Assembly: GCA_963989385.1 (NCBI GenBank)
Contig: OZ022501.1
Span: 96,642,979 to 96,706,978 of the forward strand
DNA length: 64,000 nucleotides
Reading direction: 5' to 3'
Source: Ctena decussata
Lineage: Eukaryota; Mollusca; Bivalvia; Lucinida; Lucinidae
The notes under the pieces: model-generated
Told to the model about the DNA's origin: nothing
Seen by the model: only the letters and a program-made list of their open reading frames with translations
Database searches by the model: none
Position numbers and translations under genes: made by a program
In this document: one piece after another, positions 9,620 to 59,599 of the stretch
Numbering within the stretch: position 1 is the first letter of the stretch
How the letters are laid out: every line of letters begins with the position of its first letter

Positions 9620-11905
9620 CACACTTCACACACTTATTTGAAAATTGTCAGAGAAACAGTTCAGGCGAAGAAGCAGCAACAACTCTGTTTTCAAAAACCA
9701 CAAAGGGGCATAACTAAGCCGGAAAACTCTTCTATAAAAAGCTAATAATATTAGTAATCTATTGTCTTCTGAATCTATGCACCAAAAAGGAATAAAATCA
9801 AAGCAACATGACAAAAAGGTCCTATATAAACGGTGCATAAGATATCAACAAGAGGTCCATGATGGACCTAAATCGCTCATCTGAGTTATGATGAAATAAC
9901 ACAGAAGATCATCTATTTGATGATGGTTCAATTGGAGCAGTTTTGCACTTTCTGATCTATATTCTGACAAAGTTTCATTTAGATTGGATCAAAACTGTGC
10001 CCTCTAGAGTGTACACAATATTTTCTAAGATCTGACCTGACAATTTAGTTTTTGATCAGACATTATTCAGTTTCAAATTTGGCCTACGTTTCATGAAGAT
10101 ACACATTCTGACAAAGTTTCAAGAAGATTCAATGCAAAATAAATCCACAATTGTGTATACAAGGTTTTTCTATGATTTGACCTAGTGACCTACCGGTAGT
10201 TTTTGACCTGACAAAACCCAGTTCCAAACTTGGCCTAGATTTCATTAAGATAATCATTCTGACAAAGTTTCATGAATATTGAACCAAAACTGTGCCCCCT
10301 AGAGTATACACAATGTTTTTCTAAGGTTTGACCTAGACCTAGTTTTTGATCCAACATGAGCAGTTGCACCCATGGTCTAGATTTGTTGGAGATAAACATT
10401 TTGACAAAGTTTCATGAAGATTGGAACAAAACTGTGAGCTCTGGAGCATTCACATGGTTTTTTTAAGATCTGACCTAGTGACCTAGTTTTTGACCTGACA
10501 TAGTCCAGTTTCATAATTGGTCTAGATTTCATAAAAATAAGCATTCTGACAAAGTTTCATGAAGATTGAATAATAACTGTGCCCTCCAGAGTGTACACAT
10601 GGTTGTCCTAAGATTTGACCTAGTGACCTAGCTTTTGACCCTTCATAACTCAGTTTCAATCTTGACCTAGATTGTATACGGATAAACAGTCTGACGAAGT
10701 TTCATGAAGATTGGATCATAACTGTGCCCTCTAGAGTGTACACATGATTTTTCTAAGATTTGACCCAGTGACCTAGTTTTTGACCCTACATGACTCAGTT
10801 TCAATCTTGGCCTAGATTGGAGAAGGATAAACATTCAGACATAGTTTCATGAAGATTGGATCATAACTGTGCCCTCTAGAGTGTACACAAGGTTTTTCTA
10901 AGATTTGACCTAGTGACCTAGTTTTTGACCCCACATGACCCAGTTTCAAAATTGGTCTAGATTTCATTCAGATAAACATTCTGACAAAGTATCATGATGA
11001 TTGGGTCAAAACTGTGCCCTCTGTGTCATTCTAAGATTTCTATTTTTAGGTCTGGCGGCCATTTAGTTCAACCGAGTGGAACCGTTTTGACAATTTTGGT
11101 TCAGGGCCATGAGTCAAACATTTCTGTGAAATTATTTTGAAATCAAGCCATTGGGCCATCGAGATATTGTCGTTTAAAGGTTTTTCTATTTTTAGCTCTG
11201 GTGGCCATTTTTTTTCAGCGGAGTGTAATCGTGTTAGCAATTTTGGTTCAGGGCCATGAGTCAAACATTTCTGTGAATTTTTTTTTAAATCGAGCCATTG
11301 CCTCAGAGGAGATGTCGTTTAAAGGTTTTTCTATTTTCAGCTCTGGCGCCCATTTTGTTCAGGGGAGTGGAACCATTTTAGCAATTTTGGTTCAGCGCTA
11401 TAACAGAAACACTTGTGTGAAATTATTTTGAAAATTGGCTTACTGGTCTACGAGGAGATGTCATTTGAAGAAATTGTCGACGGACGGAGGGACAGACGGA
11501 GAGACAGACGACGGACAAATATCAATCACAATAGCTCACCTTGAGCACTTCGTGCTCAGGTGAGCTAAAAAGGGGCATAACTCAGGCAAAAAGGGTTGAC
11601 AATTTAAATTATAACATACTTAATTTCAAGAAAATCGGTCAAGCAGTCTTGGAGGAGTTGCCATAACAAACTTTTTTTACGAAAAATATAAAGGGGCATA
11701 ACTCAGCAGGCAAACACTTCCAGAAACAAGACCTGTCACCGGGCCAGGATAGCTCACCTGACAGCGCCTTGCCCATCACATAAAAAACTTTAACGTAAAA
11801 CTTTAACATTTTGCTAACGCCGCCGCCGCCGCCAACGCCACCGCTGACACCGACGCCGGGGTTAGTGCAATAGCTCTTCCTGAACTTCGTTCAGGCGAGC
11901 TAAAA
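9620..11905 (+). mobile_element. Family D hairpin-ended element, split by a family A copy
   Basis: Pieces on both sides share AAAGGGGCATAACT and cAGAGAAACAGTT-type core phrases. The right end has a GCCGCCGCC-rich stretch, the hairpin CTGAA-CTTCG-TTCAG and GCGAGCTAAAA at 11905. The left boundary is uncertain. A fragment of the same core occurs at 33640-33890. Confidence 0.55.
9849..11573 (+). mobile_element. Family A hairpin-ended minisatellite element, copy 2 (nested)
   Basis: The left hairpin GGTCCATGATGGACC is followed by ATCGCTCATCTGAG. About nine ~145-bp units and three ~130-bp GGCCATTT units follow, then GACGGACGGAGGGACAGACG, the hairpin GAGCA-CTTCG-TGCTC and CAGGTGAGCTAAAA. It sits inside a family D element. 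Confidence 0.8.
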
Positions 11906-12212
11906 ACTGGATAAACATGTGTCAACTATTTTCTTATGAGCCATCTATGAGGCATCTATGACCCAAATCTGAATAATTTCGAAGCAAAAACAACTATAAG
12001 GAGTATTTTATCAGACCCCCCCCCCCCCACCCCCCCACCACCACCATCCCGCCCCTCCTCCCAGTGGCTGAGAAGACCCTTGGATTATTTGACCATGACT
12101 GGCTCAGTTAACAAACAGTGCATTTTGTTACTGCTACATAAAATTTTCAAAACATGAATAAGTTGCTGCTTTCACAGCATCCAAACTATTCATCCCAGAA
12201 ATAGAGTAGTCC

Positions 12213-12218
12213 TTTATT
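12213..12218 (-). promoter_or_regulatory. Second possible polyadenylation signal AATAAA
   Basis: AATAAA on the minus strand in unique-looking sequence about 535 nt beyond the stop of the large ORF. It is followed by an AT-rich stretch and is an alternative 3' end. Confidence 0.35.
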
Positions 12219-12393
12219 CTTCAATAGCATACAACAGATTATTTACATGCGTAAGTTATTTACAGGGGTAAACAATATGTACAGATATTTACACTTTGTT
12301 TTCTAAATGGATGTGGGTACCAACATTTGAAAAAAAAATAGTTACATGAAATGTCCAGGAAGTGCCAAAATCATTGATCAGTTGAATATGGGA

Positions 12394-12399
12394 TTTATT
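12394..12399 (-). promoter_or_regulatory. Possible polyadenylation signal AATAAA
   Basis: AATAAA on the minus strand about 355 nt beyond the stop of the large ORF. It lies at the edge of a TTAA-type repeat, so a repeat may supply the 3' end. Confidence 0.35.
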
Positions 12400-12581
12400 A
12401 ACCCTTTAAGCGCCAAAAATAGACAACAAATTATACATCTGCAAAATTTAAAAACAATGGTTTGTCTGAATTATATCATTGAGAATTCAAATACTAGGAG
12501 GCAAACAGTCTAGATCTAGATGACAAGCCGCCTCATCAGGGTCTAGGCTGTTTGCAAGTTATGATTTGATATTGTTCATTT

Positions 12582-12713
12582 TCACAGCACTCTTCCTTTT
12601 GTATCCCTCAGTCTACTATAACCAGCCAAAAATGATTGATTGCCATCTGGCAGTATGCAATGAGCCCGTTGGCTAAAATCATCTTCTGTGGGCCAGTCCC
12701 ATTGGTTGCACAG
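12582..12713 (-). CDS. Candidate small terminal exon downstream of the large ORF
   Basis: On the minus strand a plausible acceptor (ATCTTTACAG) is followed by 43 open codons ending in TGA. The peptide includes WDWPTEDDFSQRAHCILPDG, which looks protein-like. A phase-0 join from a weak donor GTTAAG at 12796 would splice it onto residue 1673 of the large ORF, replacing that ORF's last residues and removing an 83-nt intron. The donor is poor and a stretch this long can be open by chance, so this is only a candidate. It could instead be a terminal exon of a longer transcript from upstream. Possible AATAAA signals lie further downstream. Confidence 0.3.
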   Translation of the reverse strand: MCNQWDWPTEDDFSQRAHCILPDGNQSFLAGYSRLRDTKGRVL

Positions 12714-12754
12714 CTGTAAAGATTAAGTCTATGATAATTATGCCTAGAACATTT

Positions 12755-15700
12755 TTACTCTAATGATAGAGATGATGAAGAAGTCATATTCTTAACATGG
12801 AGCCACTGTTCTTTATAGTGGCTTTTGAGGTCATTTGGTAAGCTCATCCATTCTTGAAAATAATCTGACACAAGCATCCGTCTTTCCTTGGCAGGAAGCT
12901 TTTCTTTCACTGTTTCAAGACACCTTGAAACAAAAAACTGTGCAGAGTTTCTCCACACTTTCTGTTTACGGGCCTTCTTCTTTAACTGTCTGGCTTTTGT
13001 TCTCCTTGCCTTTTTGATCAGCCCTATGAAAGTCTTATTCTTGTTGAAATGCTTTTGCTGCATACTTAGATCTTTCGTTATTTTAGAGCTGATTTTCTTT
13101 GTCTCTACTGTGTATTGATCAGTTTCCACCAAAGAGTTTTTGTCTATACAGTCAAAGACATATGAGTAATCAAGAATTGGACAGTGCCTTCTAATTGCTA
13201 TTCTAATGAGTGGTGGTACTTTCTTCTTCAAGACATTTTGTCTGTTAGCTAAAACTGTGTAAGTTTTAGTGGATATACCTTTCTGCCGAAAAGGAATTGT
13301 AGTCCTTACTCTCCCTCCATTTCTCACTATCAACCTTGTAATGTCCTCCTGAGTAGTTCTTTTCTTCCCCTGGTTTGGAACAGCACCAAACAAAACAAAG
13401 ACATGAGAGTCAAACAGTGCTGTTCTATCTGCATCTACTGTTGGAAACAATTTGTTTAAATTTCTTTTAATTTTTAAATTCATTTTCTTTTGTTGGCCTG
13501 ACATGGGGGCAGAAATCCACCCAGCTTTCAAGAGTTTTTTTCGCACAAGATAGCCTCTTACATGTTTTTGTAGAACAGTTGCTGCACAATGTGAAGAACA
13601 ATATTTAATGAAGGCATGGCCTACTTCTTGCTCCTCTTGATTATTTGACATAGTCAAATGTGTAATTTCATATGAGACTCTGTTCCACAAGGCCTGAAAC
13701 TGTGCTAAAATGGTGTCTGGTTTACCCTTCCCACCATGTCTTGTTGTATGTTGGTTGTAGAATGTGTTATGTTCATAATTTGCATGCTCCCCTCCTTCTG
13801 ACTGAAACCTTGCTATTGGGAAAGGCAATGATACCATTAATTCTGGAACATGATCAATCAATTTGATCATGTATGGTGTTAGCTCCTTGTATGAATATCT
13901 ATCACAAAAAAGTTGATAAAACTTTTCAGCATACGTGACATACATTTTCTTGTCTTTTTGTGTGTAGCCCCAAACATGATCAGCTTTGTCTTTTTCTGAC
14001 AAAGTGCCTGTGTTTGAAGACGGACAAGGATCCTTCAATAATATCAAAACCATTTGATAAAATTGGAACCAGATTTCTTTCACAAGTTTTAGTTCTGTTA
14101 ATGTGTTTGGGAATCCAAGTTTTTCTCTTACCTCTGCTGGAATTGAAAGTGTTACATTCTTTTCTTTAACAACATTAAAAAGGATGTGAGGGAAACCTGG
14201 TTCCTCTGGACTGATTATCGCCACTGCATGATCCTTATTCAATGAAACTGGTACTGGATTTCCCTTCTGATCAAAAAGTATTCTGAAATTACCCTGTCTT
14301 ATTCCCCTTCTGCTAATGTTTGCTTCTAAATTTTGTATTGCTGTTTCTTTAAAGCCTTCACCATCACCTCCACGCTGAGTCTCTTTATTTCCTTCTGAAA
14401 TTATGTTCAAGACTTCTAAATTGATGAGTTTTTCAACACATCTTGTAATAGCATGTAATGCACACAAGACAGTTCTCTGAATAGGGATGGACTGAAGTAA
14501 ACTACTGACATGTTCTCTATCAATTTTCCTTATTAAATCAGTTCTTAGTCCAGTTCTTGCTTTCTCACTTTTAGATTCAACTCCACTTTCTGTGTAAATA
14601 TTCCAGCCATTTTGAGTTGTCGGACCCAGCTTTTTATCTCCATCAAGGACTGCTTCCAAAAACATTTCGTCACCAGTCAGGTAAAAGGTATCTCTTGGAA
14701 ATCTGCTAAGAGCCACATCAAGAGAAGAAGGAGTACCAAGATTTTCTTCCAAGTTATCCCTACTATCACTCTCATAAAAAATGTAGCATGGAAAAACATT
14801 CTTTGGGTTGTGAAAGCTCAGATCACTGTAGTAGGCCTCATTATTCAAAATACTAATGGCTACAAAGGTACTCTGTCTTCCACCTATCTCTCTTCCATCT
14901 CCGTATATTTTCCAATGTTTATCTCCAGGAACACTATGGTATTTGAAATTGAGCACTTCCAACATTCTAGCCGGATCAATCTGCCATCCACTGGCAGTAC
15001 GCCTTGGAGTAAGTACCGAAAAGAATACTTTCTGCATTTCCTTTTTCGCTGAACGTTCAATACGCTGTGAAGGAAACACACCTGGCATTATCTTTCTGAA
15101 ATGGTCAAATAATCTACAGCCACTTAAATTTTGCTCCATGTATATAAATTCAGCTGGAGAAACATTAAATACTTCTTTTGCTTTACTACGAACCAAGTAT
15201 TCCATAAGGCTTTGTTGCTTTCCGGATGGAGATTTTTTACCTCTTGTTGTCTGTAGCAAGTATGATATGTCATCAATGCTAAAATATCCATCGAAGTACG
15301 AATCTGGTGATAATGTGCCTTTAGTTTTCAGATTTGGTTTTATTAGTGCTGCCAAGGAATCCAAAAAAGACTTTGTTTTGCCCTTAAAGTTCTCAATACA
15401 GAAGTTTTTCATTTTTCTTCGAATGTTCTGTTTCTTCCTAGGGCTTCTTCTTTTGAGGATTATCTTTTTCCTAGCCTTTTTAACTCCATGTAATCGAAGC
15501 CTTTGAGGAGTTGAGAACACTGTTACAGGGGAAGCAAACTTGTTTCTTACTGGTGTTGACATCTGCTTCTTGATGACTGCTCCTGTTGCCACATCATCCA
15601 CCAAAGCTTTAATCAAACCTTCCCTGATGTTTTTTTTATTCTCTGGAACCAGCTTTGAGTTCAAAACAGCCATGAAGGCCCTGCTAGTTATGTAGTGTCT

Positions 15701-17818
15701 GGATGTTCCTTCTATAAAGAAGCAATGAGAAGAATGAAGTCCCTGCTCCTCCAGTGTTTTGTCAATGTGTTTGTAACCTTTCTTCTTGATTGACCCTGAA
15801 AGTCCTATTGCACCAAAGACTTGACTGCAAGACAGACCTATTTCCTTTTCATGACCACTTCCTAACACTTTATACTGTATTTCATATCCCTCTACATTGA
15901 TTGTACCTGTTGGAGTGGGGTCATTTGTTCCATAATTAAATGCGTCTTCATATTTACCTTCTTTTCTTTTATTTATGACATTGTCCAAGTCATATAATAG
16001 TTGCTTACCATTGACAGTTAGGTTGAAATTACCTTCAATCACACATTTTAACGCATCCATAGATATAGAGAGTCTCTGTCTTGTCTTACCTCGAAAAAGG
16101 AAATGCTCTTTAATTGTAAAACCATTCTTTACTAGCCTCCTGTCAATCATCTTGAAACCCTCTTTGCTAATATGCTTCTGTAATCCACAAAAATTAAAGA
16201 CCTCCTTGCAAGATAAGAACTTTTTCTCTTCGTATTCCTTGAATATAAAATTGTTTCCAAGTAACATGCAATTGAGATTTTGATCTACTTTCTTTTCAGG
16301 ATGACTTTTGTTTTCTGTTTCTATATCTGTGTGAATAATATGTACTTCTTCTGAGGATGTCTGATTTAAATATGTAGATGAACGATCATTTGTGGTCTGT
16401 CGCTCAAAAGTGTTTTCATGATTTTGGCTAGTATTTGGATGAGCATTGTCTTTTGTCTTCAAACGTCTACACCTTTTGCCATCGGACAATTGCACAGTTG
16501 GCTCTACCACTGCCTTTTTCTTATATTCATTCTCTTGTTTTGATTTCAGGTGATGCAAGAGTTTTCTAGCTTTCTGAATTGCAGCACTATGTGAAACATC
16601 TTTATGTTTCCTACCAGACATTTTTAGTCCTCTTTCAGCAAGATGATTATCTTGTCTTATTGGTTGACTGTCATCTCTTTTTTCTGAATCATCTACAACA
16701 TTCTCATCAGCTTCATTTGTTTTGTCTTCTTGTTTTGAAACTACACCATGTGCTTTCTCTGCAGACTTTTGTATTTGCATCTCCATTCTGTTTTCCACTT
16801 GCACTCGCATATATTGCTTTTCTTCATGCACATTTTCACTAGGCCGGACATTTGAAGATTCTGTAAGAAATTGTCTTCCTTGCTGATTTGTTTGTACCGT
16901 AAATGTAAGTCTCTCATTTTCAGATATGCTTGATACAAAATATATCAAAATATGGATACCATTCTCACTGTTGGAAGTTATATGATGGTCTTGCAATAAA
17001 ACAGAATTACCCGTCATAGCCCCAGAAAAACAAGGAAATAATTTACAGGTTTCCTTCAAGTCATCTACAACCATGAATGCACCATTGTACTTCAGAATGC
17101 AGTAAAAGTGGCCTGGTTTCACCACAATGGCTGCAGTAAGTTCAAAATTAAGGTCACCAGAGAGAAACTCCTGAGGAACCAAAACAGGGGTATTATTTTT
17201 ATGATTCACAATCCCTAGTTCTATCATCAAATATTCAGGCATGTTATAAGAGGTAGTACTCAATACTGTTTTGCATAAATAACATTTCTGACTTAACATT
17301 TGCTTCAGAGCATCAGGTAGATAACCATGCGTACCTTGAGCAACATTAAATGGAAGAACTAGTGGATTCTGAACAAGCTGTCTTGGCTGTACTACCCCAC
17401 AATTACAACATGTTTGCTCATACCTGGTCATGCAGAAAGAGTCCATCCTCGAACTAGTTGCTAACCATCTGAAGGCCTGCAATGTTTCTGCATCATCTCT
17501 ACCTTTTGGAGCAAATGATTCTGGCAAATTCTCTACAAGCCAATCCCACACCAGGTGTCTAGAAAAACAGGTAGCTTGTCCTAACCGTTCACGCTCTATA
17601 CAAGCATCATTCAGTTTTCTAATCAGACCATTTCCAGGGCACTGTAAAATGCCCTTTCTCATATACACTGTGTGATAATAAAACTCAAGTAATACATCTA
17701 TGGCACAGCTGGCACCCACACCACATATTTCATGTACATTGCATAGAAAGTTATTCCTATAAAATGATGCATTCTGCATTATCAGGCCTTTTTTCTCATA
17801 ATTATTCAAAACAGCCAT
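12755..17818 (-). CDS. Large multidomain USP-protease / transposase-like / BRCT / HMG-box-like protein
   Basis: One uninterrupted 1687-codon ORF; the ATG has A at -3 and G at +4, and an in-frame stop lies ~100 nt upstream. Residues ~26-295 look like a ubiquitin-specific protease: Cys box GVGASCAIDVLLEFYYH (C38), zinc-finger pairs C137/C140 and C179/C182, His box around H237 followed by VDDL (D252/D253). Residues 300-510 are a charged linker. Residues 533-597 and 660-722 are a duplicated module (LSC..VF...GL...I.K.G.K.ID..L). A basic patch covers ~780-805. Residues ~960-1400 resemble an RNase H-fold transposase: IYGDGREIGG (D974), YLTGDE (D1050), CALH (C1119/H1122), HVPEL, then SEGGEHAN (E1341/E1344). 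An IQ motif (LQKHVRGYLVRK, 1416-1427), a BRCT domain (~1467-1565, GG at 1501-1502) and an HMG-box-like helix set (~1624-1676) follow. It may be an intronless transposon gene or a domesticated one. I cannot name the transposase superfamily and see no flanking terminal inverted repeats. Confidence 0.9.
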   Translation of the reverse strand: MAVLNNYEKKGLIMQNASFYRNNFLCNVHEICGVGASCAIDVLLEFYYHTVYMRKGILQCPGNGLIRKLNDACIERERLGQATCFSRHLVWDWLVENLPESFAPKGRDDAETLQAFRWLATSSRMDSFCMTRYEQTCCNCGVVQPRQLVQNPLVLPFNVAQGTHGYLPDALKQMLSQKCYLCKTVLSTTSYNMPEYLMIELGIVNHKNNTPVLVPQEFLSGDLNFELTAAIVVKPGHFYCILKYNGAFMVVDDLKETCKLFPCFSGAMTGNSVLLQDHHITSNSENGIHILIYFVSSISENERLTFTVQTNQQGRQFLTESSNVRPSENVHEEKQYMRVQVENRMEMQIQKSAEKAHGVVSKQEDKTNEADENVVDDSEKRDDSQPIRQDNHLAERGLKMSGRKHKDVSHSAAIQKARKLLHHLKSKQENEYKKKAVVEPTVQLSDGKRCRRLKTKDNAHPNTSQNHENTFERQTTNDRSSTYLNQTSSEEVHIIHTDIETENKSHPEKKVDQNLNCMLLGNNFIFKEYEEKKFLSCKEVFNFCGLQKHISKEGFKMIDRRLVKNGFTIKEHFLFRGKTRQRLSISMDALKCVIEGNFNLTVNGKQLLYDLDNVINKRKEGKYEDAFNYGTNDPTPTGTINVEGYEIQYKVLGSGHEKEIGLSCSQVFGAIGLSGSIKKKGYKHIDKTLEEQGLHSSHCFFIEGTSRHYITSRAFMAVLNSKLVPENKKNIREGLIKALVDDVATGAVIKKQMSTPVRNKFASPVTVFSTPQRLRLHGVKKARKKIILKRRSPRKKQNIRRKMKNFCIENFKGKTKSFLDSLAALIKPNLKTKGTLSPDSYFDGYFSIDDISYLLQTTRGKKSPSGKQQSLMEYLVRSKAKEVFNVSPAEFIYMEQNLSGCRLFDHFRKIMPGVFPSQRIERSAKKEMQKVFFSVLTPRRTASGWQIDPARMLEVLNFKYHSVPGDKHWKIYGDGREIGGRQSTFVAISILNNEAYYSDLSFHNPKNVFPCYIFYESDSRDNLEENLGTPSSLDVALSRFPRDTFYLTGDEMFLEAVLDGDKKLGPTTQNGWNIYTESGVESKSEKARTGLRTDLIRKIDREHVSSLLQSIPIQRTVLCALHAITRCVEKLINLEVLNIISEGNKETQRGGDGEGFKETAIQNLEANISRRGIRQGNFRILFDQKGNPVPVSLNKDHAVAIISPEEPGFPHILFNVVKEKNVTLSIPAEVREKLGFPNTLTELKLVKEIWFQFYQMVLILLKDPCPSSNTGTLSEKDKADHVWGYTQKDKKMYVTYAEKFYQLFCDRYSYKELTPYMIKLIDHVPELMVSLPFPIARFQSEGGEHANYEHNTFYNQHTTRHGGKGKPDTILAQFQALWNRVSYEITHLTMSNNQEEQEVGHAFIKYCSSHCAATVLQKHVRGYLVRKKLLKAGWISAPMSGQQKKMNLKIKRNLNKLFPTVDADRTALFDSHVFVLFGAVPNQGKKRTTQEDITRLIVRNGGRVRTTIPFRQKGISTKTYTVLANRQNVLKKKVPPLIRIAIRRHCPILDYSYVFDCIDKNSLVETDQYTVETKKISSKITKDLSMQQKHFNKNKTFIGLIKKARRTKARQLKKKARKQKVWRNSAQFFVSRCLETVKEKLPAKERRMLVSDYFQEWMSLPNDLKSHYKEQWLHVKNMTSSSSLSLE

Positions 17819-18010
17819 GTTCAGTTTGAAAAAGGTGAAAATATCAAGAATTTTAAAGAAAAGAAAAGATTGAGATGCAAAAGCAAATAAATCCTAAACA
17901 GAATTTAAATACATGTGTTAACTAGAAATGTTTTTCAGAGAAAAACTGCTGCCCCCCCCCCCCCAGCCCCCCCACCCCCCAAGCCCATTTCCCAACCCCT
18001 CTAATGAATA
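17819..18010. other. 5' flank of the large gene
   Basis: A pyrimidine-rich minus-strand leader precedes the start codon, with a possible acceptor AATTCTGTTTAG about 75 nt upstream, so a separate untranslated 5' exon is possible. A C-rich tract (17951-17990) separates it from the next repeat. I see no terminal inverted repeat. Confidence 0.4.
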
Positions 18011-19949
18011 ACAAGAGGGCCATGATGGCCCTGGATCGCTCACCTGAGTATCCTGTGAACCTAACCTCAGAGACATCCATATGACCAATAGACAGAGTTT
18101 CACAAAGATTAAATGGAAAATGAACCCTTTATCGTGTACCTAAGGTTTTTTTAAGATTTAACCTAATGACCTAGATTTTGACCCCACATGACCCAGTTTC
18201 AAACCTGGTCTAGATTTCTTGGATATGAACATTCTGACAAAGTTATCAAAACTGTGCCGTCTAGAGTGTACACAATGCTTTCCTGAGGTTTAACCTAGTG
18301 ACCTACTTTTTGACCCAACATGACCAAGTTGCATCCTTGGTCCAGATTTGTTGAAGACAAACATTCTGACAAAGCCCTATGAAGATTAGAACAAAACTGT
18401 GTCCTCTAAAGCGTTCACACTGTTTTTCTAAGAACTGACCTAGTGACCTAGTTTTTACCTGACATGGCCCCGTTTCAAATCTGGTATAGATTTCATGAAA
18501 ATAAACATTCTGACAATGTTTCACGTAGATTGGATCATAACTGTGCCCTCTACAGTGTACACAAGGTTTTTCTAAGATTTGACCTAGTGACCTAGTTTTT
18601 GACCCCAAAAGACTCAGATTCAAATTTGGCTTAGATTTTATATAAATAAACATTCTGACAAAGTTTCATGAAGATTGGATCATAACTGTGCCCTCTAGAG
18701 TGTGCACCAGGTTTTTCTAAGATTTGACCCAGTGACCTAGTTTTTGACCCCACATGACCCAGTTTCAAAGATGGTCTAGATTTCATTTAGATAAACATTC
18801 TGACAAAGTTTCATGATGATTGGATCATAACTGTGCCCTCTGTGTCATTCTAAGATTTATTTCTATTTTTAGCTCTGGCAGCCATTTTGTTCAGCGGAGT
18901 GGAACCGTTTTAGCAATTTTTGTTCAGGGCCATGAGTAAAACATTTCTGTGAATTTTTTTTGAAATTGTGTTATTGGCTTCAGATGATGTTTAAATCTTT
19001 TTTCTATTTTTAGCTCTGGTGGCCATATTGTTCCGCGGAGCAGAACGGTTTGAGCAATTTTGGTAGAGGGTCTCCTAAGGAACATTTCTGTGAAATTATT
19101 TCAAAATCGACCCAGCAGTTTTGGAGGAGAAGTTGTTTAAAGGTTTTTCTATTTTTAGCTCTGGCGGCCATATTGTTCAGCGGAGCGGAACCGTTTGAGC
19201 AATTTTGGTAGAGGTTCTTCTAAGAAACATTTCTGTGAAATTATTTGAAAATCGGCCCAGCAGTTTTGGAGAAGTCTAAAGGTTTTTCTATTTTTTAGCT
19301 CTGGCAGCCAAAATATTTTGTTAGCGGAGCAGAACCGTTTGAGCAATTTTGGTAGAGGGTTTCCTAAGGAACATTTCTGTGAAATTATTTCAAAATCGAC
19401 CCAGCAGTTATGGAGAAGTTGTTTAAAGGTTTTTCTATTTTTAGCTCTGGCGGCCATTTTATTCAGCAGAGCAGAACCGTTTGAGCAATTTTGGTAGAGA
19501 GTCTCCTAAGGAACATTTCCGTGAAATTATTTCGAAATCTGCAGAGCAGTTTTGAAGGAGAAGTCGTTTAAAGGTTTTTCTATTATTAGCTCTGGCGGCC
19601 ATGTTGTTCAGCAGAGCGGAACTGTTTGAGCAATTTTGGTAGAGGGTCTCCTAAGGAACATTTCTGTGAAATTATTTCAAAATCGGCCCAGCAGTTTTGG
19701 AGGAGAAGTCGTTTAAAGGTTTTTCTATTATTAGCTCTGGCGGCCATATTGTTCAGTGGAGCGGAACCATTTGAGCAATTTTGGTAGGGAGTCCCCCAAG
19801 GAACATTTCTGTGAAATTATTTTAAAATCAGTCCAGCAGTTTTGGAGAAGAAGTCGTTTAAAGCAAAAGTTGACGCTGGACGACGGACGCCGGACAAAGA
19901 CCGATCACAATACCTCACCTTGAGCACTTCGTGCTCAGGTGAGCTAAAA
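18011..19949 (+). mobile_element. Family A hairpin-ended element, copy 3
   Basis: The left end has GGGCCATGATGGCCC and ATCGCTCACCTGAG. About five 145-bp GACCTAGTGACCTAG units and seven ~130-bp units with GCTCTGGCGGCCATATTGTT follow. The right end has the hairpin GAGCA-CTTCG-TGCTC and CAGGTGAGCTAAAA. Copies differ mainly in how many units of each type they carry. Confidence 0.8.
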
Positions 19950-20133
19950 AGCCTGAACAAATAAAATATCTATGCAAGCTTGGAGAAAATCCACCCACTG
20001 GTTCTAAAGATATCCTACATAGAAGACTGTGTCCTTGAAAAAATGGGTCAAGGTCACTAACTACTGCCATGAAGTTTCATCAAGATATCCCAAACGGTTA
20101 TCTAGTTATGGTGGGCACAAGACCAGTAGGGTA
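19950..20133. repeat. Short repeat fragment between two elements
   Basis: Contains GGGTCAAGGTCACTAACTAC and CATGAAGTTTCATCAAGATA, phrases typical of the minisatellite-core elements here; boundaries unclear. Confidence 0.35.
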
Positions 20134-20589: not shown

Positions 20590-22881
20590 TTCTTGCAACA
20601 TAACTTAATTTAAATTTGACCTAGTGACCTAGCTTTTGACCCAACATGACCCAGTTTCAAACCGGATATTGTAAGAATAAACATTCTGACAAAGTTTCAT
20701 TGAGATTGGATCAAAACTGTGCCCTCTAGAGCGTATACAAGGTCGTTCTTATATTTGACCTACTGACCTAGTTTTTGATCCGACACAAACCAGTTTCAAA
20801 CTTTCCTAGATTTCATAAAGGTAAACATTCTGACAGAGTTTCATGAAGATTGGATCAAAACTGTGCCCTCTAGGGTGTACACAAAGTTTTTCTTAGATTT
20901 GACCTAGTGACCTAGTTTCTGATCTGACGTGACTCAGTTTCATAAGGGGCATATATATATGGACAATAAACATTTTGACATAGTTTCATGAAGATTGGAT
21001 CAAAACTGTTCCTTCTAGTGCGTACACGAGGTTTTTCTAAGATTTGACCTAGTGACCTAGTTTTTGACCTGACATGACCTACTTTCAAACTTGGCCTAGA
21101 GTTTATGGAGATAAACATTCTGACAAAGTTTCATGCAGATTGGATCAAAACTGTGTCCTCTAGAGCACACAAACGGTTTTTCTATGATTTGACCAAGTGA
21201 CCTAGTTTTTGACCCTACATGACCCAGTTTCAAATTTGTCCTTCATATTATGAGGATAAACATTCTGATAAAGTTTCATGAACTTTGGATCGAAACTGTG
21301 CCTTCTACAGCGTACACAAGGTTTTTCTAAGATTTGACCTAGTGACCTAGTTTTTGACCCGACATGACCCAATTTCGAACTTGGCCTAGAGTTTATGGAG
21401 ATAAACATTCTGACAATGTTTTATAAAGATTGGATCAAAACAGTGTCCTCTAGAGCGTACACAATGTTTTTCTATGATTTGACCTAGTGACCTAGTTTTT
21501 GACCCAACATGACCCAGTTTCGTAGTTGTCCTAGATATTATAAAGATAAACATTCTGACAAAGTTTCATGAACTTTAGATGAAAACTGTGCCTTCTAGAG
21601 TGTACACAAGGTTTTTCTAAGATTTGACCTAGTGACCTAGTTTTTGACCCTACATGACCCAGTTTCAAACTTGGCCTAGAGTTTATGGAGATATATATTC
21701 TGACAATGTTTCATATAGATTGGATCAAAACTGTGTCCTCTAGAGCGTACACAAGGTTTTTCTATGATTTGACCTAGTGACCTAGTTTTTGACCCGACGT
21801 GACCCAGTTTCAACCTTGTCCTAGATATTATGAGGATAAACTTTCTGACTAAGTTTAATGAACTTTGGATGAAAACTGTGCCTTCTAGAGCGTACATAAG
21901 ATTTTTCTAAGATTTGACCTAGTGACCTAGTTTTTGACCAGACATGATCCAGTTTCGAACTTAGCCTAGAGTTTATGGAGATAAACATTCTGACAATGTT
22001 TTATAAAGATTGGATCAAAACTGTGTCCTCTAGAGCATACACAATGTTTTTCTATGATTTGACCTAGTGACCTAGTTTTTGACCCAACATGACCCAGTTT
22101 CGTACTTGTCCTAGATATTATAAAGATAAACATTCTGACAAAGTTCCATGAACTTTGGATAAAAACTTTGCCTTCTAGGGTGTACACAAGGTTTTTCTAA
22201 GATTTGACCTAAAGACCTAGTTTTTGACCCTACATGACCCAGTTACAAACTTGGCCTAGAGTTTATGGAGATATATATTCTGACAATGTTTCATATAGAT
22301 TGGATCAAAACTGTGTCCTCTAGAGCGTACACAAGGTTTTTCTATGATTTGACCTAGTGACCTAGTTTTTGACCCGACGTGACCCAGTTTCAAACTTGTC
22401 CTAGATATTATGAGGATAAACATTCTGACTAAGTTTCATGAACTTTGGATGAAAACTGTGCCTTCTAGAGCGTACACAAGGTTTTTCTAAGATTTGACCT
22501 GGTGACCTAGTTTTTGACCCAACGTGACCCAGTTTCGAACTTGTCCTTGATATTATTAAGATAAACATTCTGACAAAGTTTCATGAACTTTGGATGAAAA
22601 CTGTGCCTTCTAGAGTGTACACAAGGTTTTTCTAAGATTTGACCTAGTGACCTAGTTTTTGACCCGACATGACCCAGTTTCGAACTTGGCCTAGATTTTA
22701 TGGAGATAAACAATCTGACAAAGTTTCAGAAAGATTGGATCAAAACTGTGCCCGCTAGAGTGTACACAAGCAAAAGTTGACGGACGGACGTCCGGACGTC
22801 CGGACGTCCGGACGGACGTACGACGGACATCAGGGTATCCCAAAAGCTCACCCTGAGCACTTCGTGCTCAGGCGAGCTAAA
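20590..22881 (+). mobile_element. Family A element, copy 4, with a long tandem array
   Basis: About 15 units of ~145 bp carrying GACCTAGTGACCTAGTTTTT, then GGACGTCCGGACGTCCGGAC, CTCACC, the hairpin GAGCA-CTTCG-TGCTC and CAGGCGAGCTAAAA. The left terminal hairpin is not recognisable, so the copy may be 5'-truncated. Short ORFs with GSKTRSLGQILEKPC recur because the unit is tandem; I do not regard them as genes. Confidence 0.8.
21362..22520 (+). repeat. Higher-order repeat, about 580-bp period (four 145-bp units)
   Basis: Unit-specific variants recur at a ~580-bp offset: TGGAGATATATATTCTGACA near 21687 and 22267, and TTTTATAAAGATTGG near 21420 and 22000. TTTTTCTATGATTTGAC and TTTTTCTAAGATTTGAC mostly alternate every 145 bp. 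This indicates recent block duplication inside the array. Confidence 0.75.
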
Positions 22882-30343: not shown

Positions 30344-31269
30344 TTAAACTAACCCGCCATTGTCTTCATCCTCTTCCTCCAAGTCTGAACATTCTGCACC
30401 TACTTCTGCTTCAGCAGATAATTCACTGGTCTTTACATAAGACCTGTAGTTTATATTAAATGCAGCTCTGCAGACTGCAGTGTAAACTGTGCCACTGATG
30501 AACATTCCATTCAGTCTCATGGTTAATTGTGTTACAAACTTAAACTGTCCTGGTTCCTGTTCCTCCTCTGGCAAGACATCCCAACTTCCTCCAAGAAATG
30601 AATCAAAAGATTCCATATTTTCCTTTTTGTATGAAACTTCATACCTTTTCTGATTCACATCAATATTAAGAATTTCAAAATCGTGTTCCAACTGACATAG
30701 TCCCAATATAAAACGTCTTTTGAAGTTCCGGCACTTTAGTGCTGATCTAACTTCTTTGTGAATTGCTGCAGCAAGCTGTGCCTCCCTAACTCTTTTTCTA
30801 ATTGATACGTCAGACTTTGCCAGTTCTTCTTGATGACTGGTACTGGCGAAAACATTGAGCCTTCCCATAAAGTCTCTGTCTTTCTTCCCAAGAGAACAAC
30901 TAGTTCTTGATATCTTCTCTAATGGTATTTCTATTTTAACATCGTGGTCAATTCTTCCATTCAAAATCAAATCCCCTTTTACACTTGCACTGGAAGTGCA
31001 TCTATCTACTATTTCAGTGACTGCTATGCTCAAGCTATTAAAACCTTTCATGCTGCATGTCTGTCCAGTATGGACTAGTGTTCCATTGGCAAAAACCATT
31101 GGCAATTTGATATCTGTTGGTTCAGGGTTTTTTTGTGAAGCCTGACTATGGGAACATGTTGTTTCCATCCCAGATGTTTCAGTCTCCACTGCGTTCTCCT
31201 CTGGTGACTTTCTTCTCTTGTCATTTCTTTTTCTGCCAGATTTAACCTTTTCAGGAGCTTCTTCAGGAT
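30344..31269 (-). CDS. Exon 3 (last coding exon) of the Tudor-like gene
   Basis: The acceptor TTATTTATTTGTAG|AT restores aspartate 137 and opens 307 more codons to TAA at 30344. The encoded part starts PEEAPEKVKSGRKRNDKRRK, is Ser/Glu-rich, then more ordered (for example HKEVRSALKCRNFKRRFILG), and ends in an acidic tail. A weak alternative donor GG|GTTAGT overlaps the last codons, so an alternative 3' end is possible. No canonical AATAAA is seen just downstream. Confidence 0.78.
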
Positions 31270-34200
31270 CTACAAATAAATAAGTAAAATAATGTTTACT
31301 CAGTGATCTTTCAGCCTGTATCAGGATCCTGACTAAATTGGGCAAAAAGTATCAACAAGAATTCCGCAGAATGCGGTGTCTCGCCTGCTGGCACTTTGTC
31401 ACAAAACAGAGCTAAATCAGCAAAGATGTATGTATGAACCAAGTTTCTTGGCTCTAGCCCTAATAGTTTCTGAGAAACAGACCTAAAGGCGAAAACTTGA
31501 CAAAAAAATGCAAAGTCAGTCAAGCGTAAAATGTTGGTAAAGACTCAATATTGATGATGACTTTGAGCTCTCCTCTTCCAGATAAATGCATGACCCAAGC
31601 AGGCTCTAGCCCTTATAGTTTCTGAGAAAATGGCCTAATCACTAAAACTCGACAAAAAATTGCAAAGTTAGTCAACCGTAAAATGTAGGTCAGGACTCAA
31701 TATTGATGATGGCTTTGAAATCTAAGCTTCCAGATGTACGCACAAACCAAGTTTCATGGCTCTAGCCCTTATAGTTTCTGAGAAAATGACCTAAGCGCAA
31801 AAACTCGACAAAAAATTGCAAAGTCCATCAACCGTAAAATGTAGGTCAAGACTCAATATTGATGATGGCTTTGAGATCTACTCTTCCAGATGCATGCATG
31901 AACCATGTATCATGGCTGTAGTCCTTATTGTTCCTGAGAAAATGACCTAAATGCAAAAACTCGACAAAAGTTTACGCCGCCGCCACCGCTGCCCCGCCGA
32001 CAACACCGCTGCCCTGTCGCCGACACCGGAAAAGCAATACATATGTTGTGCCTCTGCTTCGCAGGTGAGACAAAAAGGGGCATAACTCATGATAAAAGGC
32101 CTTTACTGAAAAACCTAGTTTTAATGCACAGCTTCATACCAATTATGTTCACGTACTTAGTTTCAAGAAAATCAAATGAACAGTCTGGGAGGAGAAGTGA
32201 AACAAAAATAGACCAGTTTCAAACCTTGTCATGATTTCTTGGATATGAACATTCTGACAAATTTATCAAAACTGTGCCCTCTAGAGTGTACACATGTTTT
32301 TCTAAGGTTTGACCTAGTGACCTACTTTTTGACCCAACATGACCAAGTTGCACCCATTGTCCAGATTTGTTGGAGACAAACATTCTGACAATCTCATGGA
32401 GATAAGAACAAAACTGTGTCCTCTAAAGCGTTCACAATGTTTTTCTAAGAACTGACCTAGTGACCTGACATGGCCCAGTTTCAACTCTGGTATAGATTTT
32501 ATAAAAATAAACATTCTGACAATGTTTCACATAGATTGGATCATAACTGTGCCCTCTAGAGTGTGCAGAGGGTTTTTCTAAGATTTGACCCTGTGACCTA
32601 GTTTTTGACTCCACATGACCCAGTTTCAAAGATGGTCTAGATTTTATTTAGATAAACATTCTGACAAAGTTTCATGATGATTGGATCATAACAGTGCCCT
32701 CTGTGTCATTGTAAGATTTATTTCTATTTTTAGCTCTTGGGGCCATTTTGTTCAGCTGAGTGGAAACGTTTTAGCAATTTTTGTTCAGGGCCCTGAGTAC
32801 ATCATTTCTGTGATTTTTTTTAAATTGAGCCACTTGGCTTCAGAGACAATGTTGTTGTTTTTATCTATTTTCAGCTCTGAAGGCCATATTGTTCAGCGGA
32901 GCAGAATCGTTTGAGCAATTTTGGTAGAGGGTTTCCTAAGGAACATTTCTGTAAAAATTATTTCAAAATCTGCCCAGCAGTTTTGGAGGAGTTGTTTAAA
33001 GGTTTTTCTATTTTTAGTTCAGGCAGCCATATTGTTCAGCGGAGCAGAACCGTTTGAGCAATTTTGGTAGAGAGTCTCCTAAGAAACATTTCTGTGAAAT
33101 TATTTCAAAATCAGCCCAGAAGTTTTGGAGGAGAAGTTGTTTAAAGGTTTTTATATTTTTAGCTCTGGCGGCCATATTGTGGAGCGGAACCGTTTGAGCA
33201 ATTTTGGTAGAGGGTCTCCTAAGGAACATTTCTGTGAAATTATTTCAAAATCTGCCCAGCAGTTTTTGAGGAGAAGGCGTTTAAAGGTTTTTCTATTTTT
33301 TAACTCTGGCGGCCATATTGTTCAGTGGAGCGGAACATTTCTGTGAAATTATTTCAAAATCTGCAGTTTTGGAGGAGAAGTCGTTTAAAGGTTTTCTATT
33401 TTTAGCTCTGGTGGCCATATTATTCAGTTGAGCTGAACTGTTTGAGCAATTTTGGAAGAGAGTCCCCCAAGGAACATTTCTGTGAAATTATTTCAAAATC
33501 TGTCTAGCAGTTTTGGAGGAGAAGTTGTTAAAGCAAAAGTTGACGACGGACAAAGACCTTTCAAAATACCTCCCCTTGAGCACTTTGTGCTAGGTGAGCT
33601 AAAAATACAAATTCAGAGCATTTAACAACACCTGAAAAGGGACATAACTCAGAAAAAATGCTGAAGTTTCAAACCTATAACTCAGTTAGACCAATATGTG
33701 TTCAGACACTTAATTTTAAAAATGTCAGAGAAACAGTTTAGGAGAAGAAGAAGCAACAAACTCTCTTGTCAATAACCATAAAGGGGCATAACTAAGCCAG
33801 ACAACTCTTCTGGAAAAAGCTGAAAACTAATTGTCATCTGTTGTCTTCTCCTGTATCAATGCACCAAATAGGAATAAAACCGAAATATATATTGGTTGGT
33901 TGATTTGATGCTTAACGTCCACAGTAAACAACTAAGGTCATGTCGGGACGGTCAGTTAACCTAACCACACTATTGGACCTCATTTAAAGATTCAAAACAT
34001 TTCGGACAGATGGACAGACAGATGGACAACATAAAAACAGTACAACCCCCAACAAATAGTTTGGTTGGGGGGGGGGGGAGGGGGGGGGGGGGATTTAACA
34101 ACAGCTCCGCTGAGCAAGGCAATATACACCCATCCATTCAATACTGAGGCAACAAAATCACAACACAATTTAAGCTATACAAAAGGTTGTAATTGTGTTT

Positions 34201-40200: not shown

Positions 40201-43200
40201 TTCATGTTTTGTGCTATTTTTAGTAACAGCAGATCGCAGCCATCTTGGAATGCCAAATTGCAATTAATCAAATGGCTTCATGTAAGGGACATTCTGACAC
40301 AAAATTGGTCCAATTCCATTCAAGGGATCTAGAGTAATTGTCTTTTTTATGTTTGTGCTATTTTCAGTAATGGCCCCCATGTTGGCCATCTTGGATAGTC
40401 AACTGGCACAAAATTGAAATTATTCCTTTCAAGGACCATTTCTGACCTGAATCAATTGCGTTTTCTTTAGATACTGACATTAGAGCAAAATCGGTCTTGT
40501 AAACGCTAAGTAGGTCACTGTGACCTAATTTCGCTGAAGATTTTTTTCATTTTTATAATTTTTAATCACAAGGTCCCATTAATGTTCCACGCAAACTTTC
40601 AACCAAATATACCAAATGGTTTTGGAGAAGAAGTTGATTTTGTTGTTTTTGCTATTTTTAATAACGGCCATCTTGGATTCTTGACCTGAACCAATTTTAT
40701 ATTTTTGAAACCCTGCAGTCTGGTCATGCTTCATGTGAAATTTAAGACCCATGGGTTCAGTGGTTTCAGAGAAGAAGTTGTTTGAAGTTGTTTGAATAAG
40801 TCGTTTTTTGACATTGGCATTTGAGCAAAATTACACTCGTAAACAGAAAGTAGGTCACTGTGACAAAACTCCCCTACAGAATTTTTTCATTTTTACAATT
40901 TTGACTACCAAGATTTTACTGATGTTCCATGCCAAAATTCAGACAAATATACCCAGTGGTTCTGGAGAAAAAGTTTATTTTGATGTTTTTGCTATTTTTA
41001 GTACCAGCGGCCATCTTTGATTTTCAACCGGACCCAATTTTACAATTCTGAGACCCTGGAGTCAGGTCATGCTCCATGTGAAATTTGAGAACCATGAGAC
41101 CAGTAGTTTTACAGAAGAATATGTTTGAAATTTTGTTTTTAGGTGTTGACGGACGACGCACGACTCACTACGCACGCCGGACACATTGGTATGACAATAG
41201 CTCACTATGGCCCTTCGGGCCAGGTGAGCTAAATATACCAAGCGGTTCTGGAGAGAAAGTGGATTTTGTTGGTTTTGCTATTTTTAGTAATGGCGGCCAT
41301 CTTGGATTCTTGACTCGTCTGAATTTTATAATTCTGAAGCCCTGCAGTCTGATCATGCTCCATGTGAAATTTGAGAACCATGGATGCAGTGATTTCAGAG
41401 AATAAGTATTTTGAATGAACTTAAACCCTAGGATCGACGTAAATTGTGAACAGACGGATGGACGTACTGTCTGACAGACGGACGGAAAACCGGACTCCTA
41501 CATTGCACCTTGCTAAAGCAGGTGCAACAATAAAAATGCACAAAATATGCGCTCTTTATAAGGAGGTTGCTACCACATTCCACTTTTGATTTTGTTTATG
41601 GACCTGTGCAAGCTAAGGTTCCATTCCCTGAAATTCATATTGGAAAAAGATTCTACCAATAAACCCAGTCTGGAAAAGGAAATATATAGCAAACAAACAT
41701 GTAAAGGTTAGCATTATGTTAAAACTCAAGAGGTATTTTATAGACAGTACCTTTGTCTTTCAATGAATGCACAGGTATATCCCTTGTGCCTTGTTCTGTA
41801 GTGATCTGCACACAGCGACAAAACCGATCCACTGTCACCACTTCACCTACGTGTTCACCCAGTTCATCAAGGTAAGCAACAGTGTCTCCCCTTTTCATGA
41901 GGCGCAGTTGATCTAACCTGTTTCTGTTGTCCCTCATGGATTGTCTTTTTGTACCTCGCCCAGAGCCTGAAACAATCACAGAAAATTCTTTCAAGGCCAC
42001 AGAAAAAAAAATATATATAAAAAATAAGTGGTTCTATAGGTGTGGAAAAAAAATTGGTCGGTAGGTAAGAAAAACTGTTTATGCAGATATTTTACAAAGA
42101 TAATAACATAAATTCAGATTAAACACCTTTTTTGTATTCAATAACATTTTTACCTGCGAGAAGCAAAAAAAAAAACAAAAAAAAAACTATAAATTGTGTA
42201 TGTAAGACACAAATGATGCCCCCATGCAGCGCCTATCACAAAGTAGTGTACATCATTGAATTGTCCATTATCTTCGAACATTATTTCAAAGAACTTTCCT
42301 GCTAACCTGACTGTCAAAACGGCTAAGCACAAAGTGATCATACAATGCACAACCCTACAACGCAAAAAAAAAAAAGAAAAAAAAAAAACAAGAGCTCCGC
42401 TGAGCGGGGCAATATACGCCCGTTGGGGCTTAAAGTTGGAAAGACAACAAGAGATGACAGAACTTTTGTTAGTAGCTTAAATCTTCAATAATAAGGCAGG
42501 TATAAAACTACAAAACAAACAAAGCTAATATGAAATTCCTAGACAAAAATTACAAAGGCGCATAATTCCATCAGAACTGAAAGTAGGGTCATGGTTCTTG
42601 GTCTCTGCATAATGTCTGATATTTGTACAAACTTCCATGAAGAAATCTTAAACGGTTTTCAAGATATGGAGCAGACATGAAATTACTATATGAAAAATAC
42701 AAAGGTGCATAATTCCTTCAAAACTGAAAGCAGGGTTATGGTTCTTTTTCTCTGCACATTGTCTGATGATGCTTCATATTTGTATAAACTTTCATGAAGA
42801 AATCTTAAACAGTTTTTGAGATATGGAGTGGACAAATAATGTTACCTTTTGAACTTTGACCTCTAAGTGTGACCTTGACCTTTGTTGGACATTGTTGAAA
42901 TACAAGTTCTGCAAGTTGCCTCAATAAGGTGAACATTGGACTAAAGTTTCAAAAAAATCTTTCAAGAACTTAGAGGTTAAGGAGATATGGAGTGGACACG
43001 AATTTAATACAAAATTACAATACGAAAAATACAAGGGGCGTAATTTTGTTAAGTAGGGTTAAGGTTCTTTATCCCTGCACATCATCTAAGTGTGCTTTAT
43101 ATGTATACAAACTTTCATGAAGAAATCTTAAATGGTTTTTGAGATATGGAGCGGACACGAAGCTTAAATTGTGAATTTACTATATGAAAAATACAAAGAG

Positions 43201-47662: not shown

Positions 47663-47775
47663 GGCTGCTTTTTTGTTTGCACTTAACCCAAGAACATTTC
47701 CGAAGGAAAACAAAATTATACTGGGGAAAACGGACATGGATTTTGAAAATCGTAAATGTATTAATACACACAGTG

Positions 47776-47780
47776 ATTGG
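47776..47780 (-). promoter_or_regulatory. CCAAT box upstream of the Tudor-like gene
   Basis: Minus-strand CACCCAATCAC about 115 nt upstream of the chosen start codon. The spacing suits a CCAAT promoter element; no clear TATA box is seen. Confidence 0.35.
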
Positions 47781-48836
47781 GTGAGACCAAATCAAAGGAG
47801 GGCTACATAAAAATGCTTTTTAATTTTAGCATATAAAACGACAACCGAATGGCGTTTTGACCTTTTCTGTGATAAAATGGATGTAAGGAAGGAAAACAAA
47901 CATTTTTTTTAAATTAGAAAAGTAGAACTATTTTTTGTCAGATCAGGGGGCGGTCTCTCTAGCTGTCAATAAAAGATAAACTGGTTTCCCGCTTCCACAA
48001 ACAAATCACGCTTCCGAAAAAACTTAATATTTTAGCTAGAAAGACAAATAAAAATTCGATTTCGATTTAAAAAAAACGTAGATTATGAATCTGAAGTCTA
48101 TTTGCCTGTCGGACAAACAGATAATTTTTTTGTAGTCTTTACTTTGGTATAGGACATATATCGGCACGGAAATTATATAACAGAAGGGATCAAAAGTTCA
48201 TACCAGCAGTTAGCAGAGAAATTATATGGCTATCTACATTAGCAACATCTGGATTATTTCAAACCCGACCTTCCCCTTGTTTTATATTATTTTGGTTGGT
48301 GGGTCGGGTCAGAATAAATAAGACTCGCACACGCTATGAGATGCAAAAAACAGTGCCATTTATGCCAAAAAATGTGAGGAGCTTTTGCTAACATTTGTTC
48401 AGATACAGACAATAGCACACATGATTTTTTTGTTCACTTGAAGATAACAAATCATTGACTCACAACTTATCTACGTTAACAATGCTTTGACCAACTGGGC
48501 CATGTTGTCTCAACTCATAATGTTATGAATGGGATGCCATCTTTTTTTATCTGCTTAATTTTAAAATGATAAATCAGACATCATTTCTTAACAATTTTAG
48601 TATAGACAGTATTTGATAATAAGAACTCTTACATGAAGAAATATACAATATTTACCTGGATAAAAGACATTTACCTGGACAAAAGACAGAGTCCCCCACC
48701 TACACCCCACCTCCCCCTCACCACCACTCACTTTCCAAAACACAAGAAAAATCTAGATCCATCCTATGACACATAACCTAGAATTTGGGTGTTGTTTTGG
48801 AAGGAAACACAATCTTACAGCAGAACTATAATGATA
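47781..48836. other. Upstream flank of the Tudor-like gene
   Basis: AT-rich, with no ORF or repeat that I can assign. Probably the promoter side of the gene. Confidence 0.35.
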
Positions 48837-59280: not shown

Positions 59281-59595
59281 TTATCCCATAACCTTACTAG
59301 GTCGTTTGGGCACCACAGATGACTTCGCAACAATCCCTTTCCAGCTTGTCCTGTTTTCAGCTGCTATAGTTGAGCTGGCAAATTTCATCCTTGTCCACTC
59401 TTTAATATTATCTTCCCACCTCTTCTTCTGTTGACCTCTTCTTCTTTTTCCTTTCACTGTGCCCTGCAGAATCGTCTTTGCTAAATCAGAAGACTTTGAG
59501 ACGCGACCAAACCGCCGTAGTTTCCGTTTCTTGATCAGCGTCAGGAGTTCATCATATTCTCTAATGGCTGCTTGGATCTTTCTGCGAACCTCCAT
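59281..59595 (-). mobile_element. LINE reverse-transcriptase C-terminal fragment
   Basis: Minus-strand codons read KKRKLRRFGRVSKSSDLAKT, QKKRWEDNIKEWTRMKFAS and KGIVAKSSVVPKRPS, the basic tail (RRFGHV...GRQKKRW.DNI.EW) of a common invertebrate non-LTR element class. 5'-truncated; it interrupts the GGACGTCC array. Confidence 0.8.
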
Positions 59596-59599
59596 GCTT

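Follow-up and report, generated by a model that had tools for sequence, protein, structure and literature searches.

A Single Open Reading Frame of the Bivalve Ctena decussata Combines a Predicted USPL1-Like Protease with a Transposase-Like Core: A Candidate Animal Transposon Lineage or a Gene Domesticated from One

The window analyzed here is a stretch of 64,000 nt from the genome of the bivalve Ctena decussata, whose assembly comprises 1,657,992,415 bases (1.66 Gb) in 245 contigs. Its longest ORF is intact and uninterrupted, as originally predicted, and lies on the minus strand, which that prediction had not specified (table 1). It comprises 1687 codons from the ATG and 1712 codons from stop to stop. 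All residues named in the original prediction were found at their positions: C38, C137/C140, C179/C182, H237, and D252/D253 in the N-terminal part, and D974, D1050, C1119, H1122, E1341, E1344, and G1501/G1502 further downstream. We detected no Rfam match and no tRNA in the window, and the best matches in PHROGs and NCBIfam had E values of 0.03, the others being worse.

Table 1. Features of the ORF and Its Relic (Positions Refer to the Window unless a Contig Is Given)
Feature	Residues	Position	Strand	Evidence
Single uninterrupted ORF	1687 aa	12755..17818	minus	Seven homologs
Predicted USP-fold, USPL1-like protease domain	17-300	16919..17770	minus	Cys38, Zn-ribbon CxxC x2, His237-Phe238, Asp252
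Tandem domain, copy 1	515-606	16001..16276	minus	hhalign; KilA-N/Bro-N-like at best
Tandem domain, copy 2	638-730	15629..15907	minus	hhalign versus copy 1
Transposase-like core	881-1400	13619..15178	minus	D974, D1050, C1119xxH1122, W1250, E1341, E1344
IQ motif	1410-1429	13532..13591	minus	Pfam PF00612, 1.8e-5
BRCT domain	1464-1575	13094..13429	minus	Pfam BRCT_2 and fold
HMG-box-like tail	1611-1675	12794..12988	minus	HMG_box_2, under cut-off
Decayed relic of the ORF (L005/L008/L009)		contig C1, about 34.571-34.578 Mb		Stops and frame breaks

A protein search identified seven homologs with 31-56% identity to the window protein. Four of them (P0001, P0002, P0006, and P0007) are single ORFs of 1445-1618 aa running from the protease through the C-terminal tail. 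The three others are truncated relative to this full architecture, P0003 and P0005 lacking N-terminal parts and P0004 both ends; the truncated and the single-ORF states of the homologs may in part be a product of database gene calling. An assembly chimera, one of the outcomes named at the outset as fatal to the prediction, is excluded in practice, since P0001 aligns with 98% of the protein and is 56% identical to it. The four homologs extending from protease to tail speak equally against a chimeric or chance frame, and 1712 open codons would arise by chance at 37% GC with a probability of ~10^-52; we therefore regard such an origin as extremely improbable. The identity to the window protein is uneven along the chain: 43-70% in the core, 28-62% in the protease, and 7-24% in the linker at residues 301-514. 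All conservation counts given below derive from an alignment of eight rows that includes the window protein, fewer rows covering the N-terminal sites. Pattern scans of viral contigs with the protein and with profile A2, and of prokaryote genome contigs with profile A2, yielded no confirmed relative. A PDB sequence search with the single protein retrieved nothing at E ≤ 1. The full profile A1 retrieved DNA ligase IV through its BRCT; two carbonic anhydrases at E 0.04-0.1, aligned to profile positions 178-276, were discarded as chance matches. With the N-terminal profile A3, the best E value was 0.45 and the others were worse.

The proposal of a USP-type protease agrees with two structural searches of the predicted N-terminal model. 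Using Foldseek against PDB, the SUMO protease USPL1 ranks first (3.2e-8), tied with USP46; in the second search, ubiquitin USPs, USP18, and Pan2 fill the 50 matches listed and USPL1 is not among them. These matches support a papain-like USP fold for the modeled residues 1-300, with Cys, His, and Asp in order, as had been expected for residues 26-295. The N-terminal model also gave 12 matches at E ≤ 0.001 in a viral structure library that does not give the model ranges; half of these are named ubiquitin hydrolases or USP-domain proteins and the other six are unnamed or uncharacterized. C38 and the four cysteines of the two CxxC pairs are conserved in all five covering rows, H237 and D252 in all six, and D253 in four of six. 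The Pfam UCH profile does not match the window protein, UCH_1 matches one of the seven members at E = 0.1, and the C98 profile gives no match at E ≤ 10.

The residue directly following the catalytic His is a Phe in 6/6 covering rows. As reported in the consulted portion of PMC8983731, a Phe replaces at this place in USPL1 the Tyr of ubiquitin USPs. Because of this Phe, shared with USPL1, deSUMOylation is a likelier activity of the predicted protease than deubiquitination; of the two activities originally offered as alternatives, the residue evidence thus speaks for SUMO and not for ubiquitin. With USPL1, a SUMO isopeptidase of peptidase family C98, the window protein shares the predicted USP fold, the Cys-His-Asp triad, a putative four-Cys zinc ribbon, and the Phe. 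USPL1-type proteases have such a ribbon and lack the β8-β9 blocking loop. Tyr451 of USPL1 has no Tyr equivalent in the family, the residue five places before the His being V, L, M, L, and Q in the five covering rows, as established by counting without superposition. The stretch preceding the His looks short compared with that of canonical USPs, the loop being likewise considered without superposition. The consulted portion of PMC8983731 mentions no nuclease core in USPL1, whereas here a core lies in the same chain.

The segment at residues 500-730, flagged in the original prediction without an identity, proved to be a tandem duplication. Its two repeats of ~90 aa are copies of the same domain (hhalign probability 99.2), modeled at pLDDT values mostly of 73-90, and P0006 has copy 1 only. 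Foldseek against BFVD gave weak matches to proteins of the KilA-N (E 0.012), Pteropox zinc-finger-like (0.013), and Bro-N (0.041) kinds, the query being the N-terminal model and the matched model ranges not being given. The modeled domain is perhaps KilA-N/Bro-N-like, and it may bind DNA. Pfam gave no KilA-N, Bro-N, or AntA match for it, and a search of the genome with the PF02498 (Bro-N) profile gave none either. Two other assignments were rejected. The AntA/AntB phage antirepressors resemble the repeats by eye, but profile comparison, based on 15 nonredundant AntA sequences out of 66 matches, gave probabilities of 0.27 and 0.37 percent. For a Ski/Sno-type domain, SnoN-type PDB matches were obtained at Foldseek E values of 0.8-0.9 only.

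No other long segment of the protein is as well conserved as the core: 121 of the 521 columns at residues 880-1400 are invariant, and D974, D1050, C1119, H1122, W1250, E1341, and E1344 are identical in 8/8 rows. As many Asp (8/24), Glu (9/42), and Trp (3/6) columns are invariant, single residues say little, and invariance of the core is not by itself proof of catalysis. Judging from the alignment, the ordered series D, D, CxxH, W, E says more, together with C1119 being the sole invariant Cys out of six in the core. This layout is that of MULE and hAT transposases, according to the consulted portion of PMC5225508. The window protein shares with these DDE transposases the order of the motif, with the Cys-His pair and the Trp between the second D and the E. 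It differs from them by the lack of any profile match, by its long additional N- and C-terminal domains, and by the fact that neither element ends nor multiple copies were found. The transposase-like core of the original prediction therefore stands as to the order and invariance of its motif, to which W1250 is now added. A confident RNase H model and a Pfam transposase match (at E ≤ 10) were not obtained. The model, computed from five sequences, has a mean pLDDT of 60.1, with values below 50 over residues 962-1087 and 1337-1383; at this pLDDT below 50, strands are predicted on either side of D974 and immediately ahead of D1050, in an order that would suit RNase H. The RNase H fold proposed for residues 960-1400 has in its favor this strand order and not the confidence of the model. 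The C-terminal model had no match at E ≤ 0.001 in the viral structure library. In the second structural search with this C-terminal model, BRCT-containing chains filled the rows, so the core was barely probed.

Downstream of the core, the predicted IQ motif and BRCT domain were both recovered. The IQ profile reaches 24.6 bits, above its cut-off of 20.3, and is found in 7/8 members at E ≤ 0.1. BRCT_2 scores 27.6 bits against 27.3, which is marginal for the window sequence alone; G1501 and G1502 are present in 8/8 rows, and the structural search of the C-terminal model also backs this domain. The HMG-like tail is a weaker case. HMG_box_2 remains under its cut-off of 22.4 (13.7-15.0 bits, E 0.04-0.11, one of five members; 13.7 bits for the window protein), and 14 of the 20 matches of a PDB profile search at E ≤ 10 are HMG boxes (E 0.019-2.4), the best being UBF1 at 0.019.

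BRCT, HMG-like, and USP domains also occur in host proteins, and with the low-confidence core model and the lack of a transposase profile match, this would suit a host multidomain DNA-repair or chromatin protein in which residues 881-1400 merely carry spaced acidic residues. We consider this unlikely, given the complete ordered series from D974 to E1341 in every row, the single invariant core Cys, and predicted strands that, at low pLDDT, fit RNase H. The protein is likely derived from a transposase.

A whole-genome protein search, in which all eight candidates were scored, recovered a single full copy, that of the window, and, at one other locus, three partial matches. Because these three lie within a tandem duplication, with an offset of ~4.0-4.4 kb and 93-95% identity in the longest pieces, they represent one decayed relic that was duplicated. 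Its pieces are 26-57% identical to the window protein, and an 89-bp minisatellite lies inside the coding relic. With P0007 as the query, only the window gene was found (12 candidates, all scored). Between 11501-12760 and 17816-18100, we identified no terminal inverted repeats or target-site duplication belonging to the ORF and no element-sized direct repeats. Near the ORF, the inverted match with the highest score (11) was rejected as element ends, since its two arms belong to distinct dispersed repeats of the flanks, and so was the best direct match, which is poly-C; further weak inverted pairs among the 25 longest of 180 were not treated as ends. The notion of a self-contained transposon with shared ends and several copies thus found no support: one full copy and one relic locus are present in 1.66 Gb.

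A dispersed repeat closely flanks the ORF on both sides, at about 9849-11570 and 18012-19952. Its two copies have the same orientation, contain internal 145-bp satellite units that look bivalve-like, start with AACAAGAGG...GCTCACCTGAG-like sequences, and end with the hairpin-like GAGCACTTCGTGCTCAGGTGAGCTAAAAA; we take them to be possibly Helitron-type. A further array of about 15 units of the same satellite occupies 20600-22860. The 716 bp of 3' flank searched are unique except for a dispersed repeat of ~166 bp (12397-12563), which has at least 46 matches in the genome, the window included (best 40 of 2284 candidates scored). Elsewhere in the window, the second-longest ORF (30344-31345, minus strand, 333 aa) has no Pfam match at E ≤ 0.1. 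Two short minus-strand ORFs, at 41719-42033 and 47354-47791, share a GD-x-V-x-x-x-DELG motif, have no Pfam match, and resemble by eye Tudor/chromo-type exons. An ORF fragment at 59281-59598, also on the minus strand and with no Pfam match, resembles by eye a LINE reverse transcriptase tail. Nine of the 54 listed stop-to-stop ORFs of at least 90 aa were scanned against Pfam and none matched.

Two histories can account for these data. Since all that remains in this genome is an intact copy and a single decayed relic, the family may be a transposon lineage of very low copy number. The truncated homologs and the frame-broken relic fit a decaying mobile lineage, near extinction in this genome. We give even chances to the reading of an undescribed, very low-copy family of transposase-type recombinases carrying their own Ubl (SUMO-type) protease in the chain. 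Alternatively, a transposase may have been captured once and maintained since then as a nuclear protein encoded by a single gene copy, its core and protease remaining active, to serve as a recombinase or as a SUMO-linked chromatin or repair factor. The single intact copy with its core residues kept fits such a domestication; the lack of detected ends, the largely unique 3' flank, and the maintenance of core residues in relatives as distant as 30-58% identity favor it as well. Its intronless ORF, the truncated homologs in other records, and the relic in the same genome count against it, and we view it as possible without being the better bet. Mobility thus has a slight lead and domestication is nearly as likely.

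In KDZ (Kyakuja-Dileera-Zisupton) transposons, the transposase is associated with an Ulp1-type peptidase. The window protein has in common with them the association of a transposase-type core with a Ubl-type protease, and differs by its USP rather than ULP fold and by the lack of a match of the core to PF18758 (KDZ transposase) at E ≤ 10; no Ulp1 (C48) peptidase is among its Pfam matches. Plant ULP1-bearing MULEs (Kaonashi/Vandal) likewise have a transposon-associated Ubl-protease domain, and the consulted portion of PMC13317346 describes there a captured Ulp1 domain that is encoded by one of the element's several genes, whereas here the USP fold lies in the core's own chain. This capture (PMC13317346, same portion) demonstrates that proteases of this kind are taken up by transposons. 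Among the matches listed in a search of titles and abstract starts of the open-license literature, which leaves most subscription journals outside, we found no description of a USP-fold protease and a transposase core in one chain, nor of a fusion of a USP fold with BRCT and HMG, in line with the original prediction.

If the transposon reading is correct, the tandem repeat domains and the HMG-like tail would bind and bend DNA, and the D-D-CxxH-W-E core, using two metal ions, would cut and join strands. The USPL1-like domain may deSUMOylate nearby host proteins, such as silencing or repair factors, while the BRCT would bind phosphorylated repair proteins and the IQ helix a calmodulin-type light chain. 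The USPL1-like reading predicts that the first 310 residues would process SUMO probes but leave ubiquitin probes intact. We tentatively propose, at rather less than even confidence, that the gene belongs to a new lineage of animal DNA transposons at the superfamily level, or is a domesticated descendant of such an element, with a single polypeptide uniting a DDE recombinase, its own USPL1-type deSUMOylase, phage-antirepressor-like DNA-binding domains in tandem, BRCT, and HMG. In that case transposons would have recruited a SUMO protease twice, the second time from a USP rather than a ULP fold. By carrying a Ubl-specific protease on the same chain as a recombinase, a mobile element would have a direct means of countering SUMO-dependent silencing or steering repair where it inserts, each insertion event being able to lift SUMO-based silencing, or influence repair, locally.
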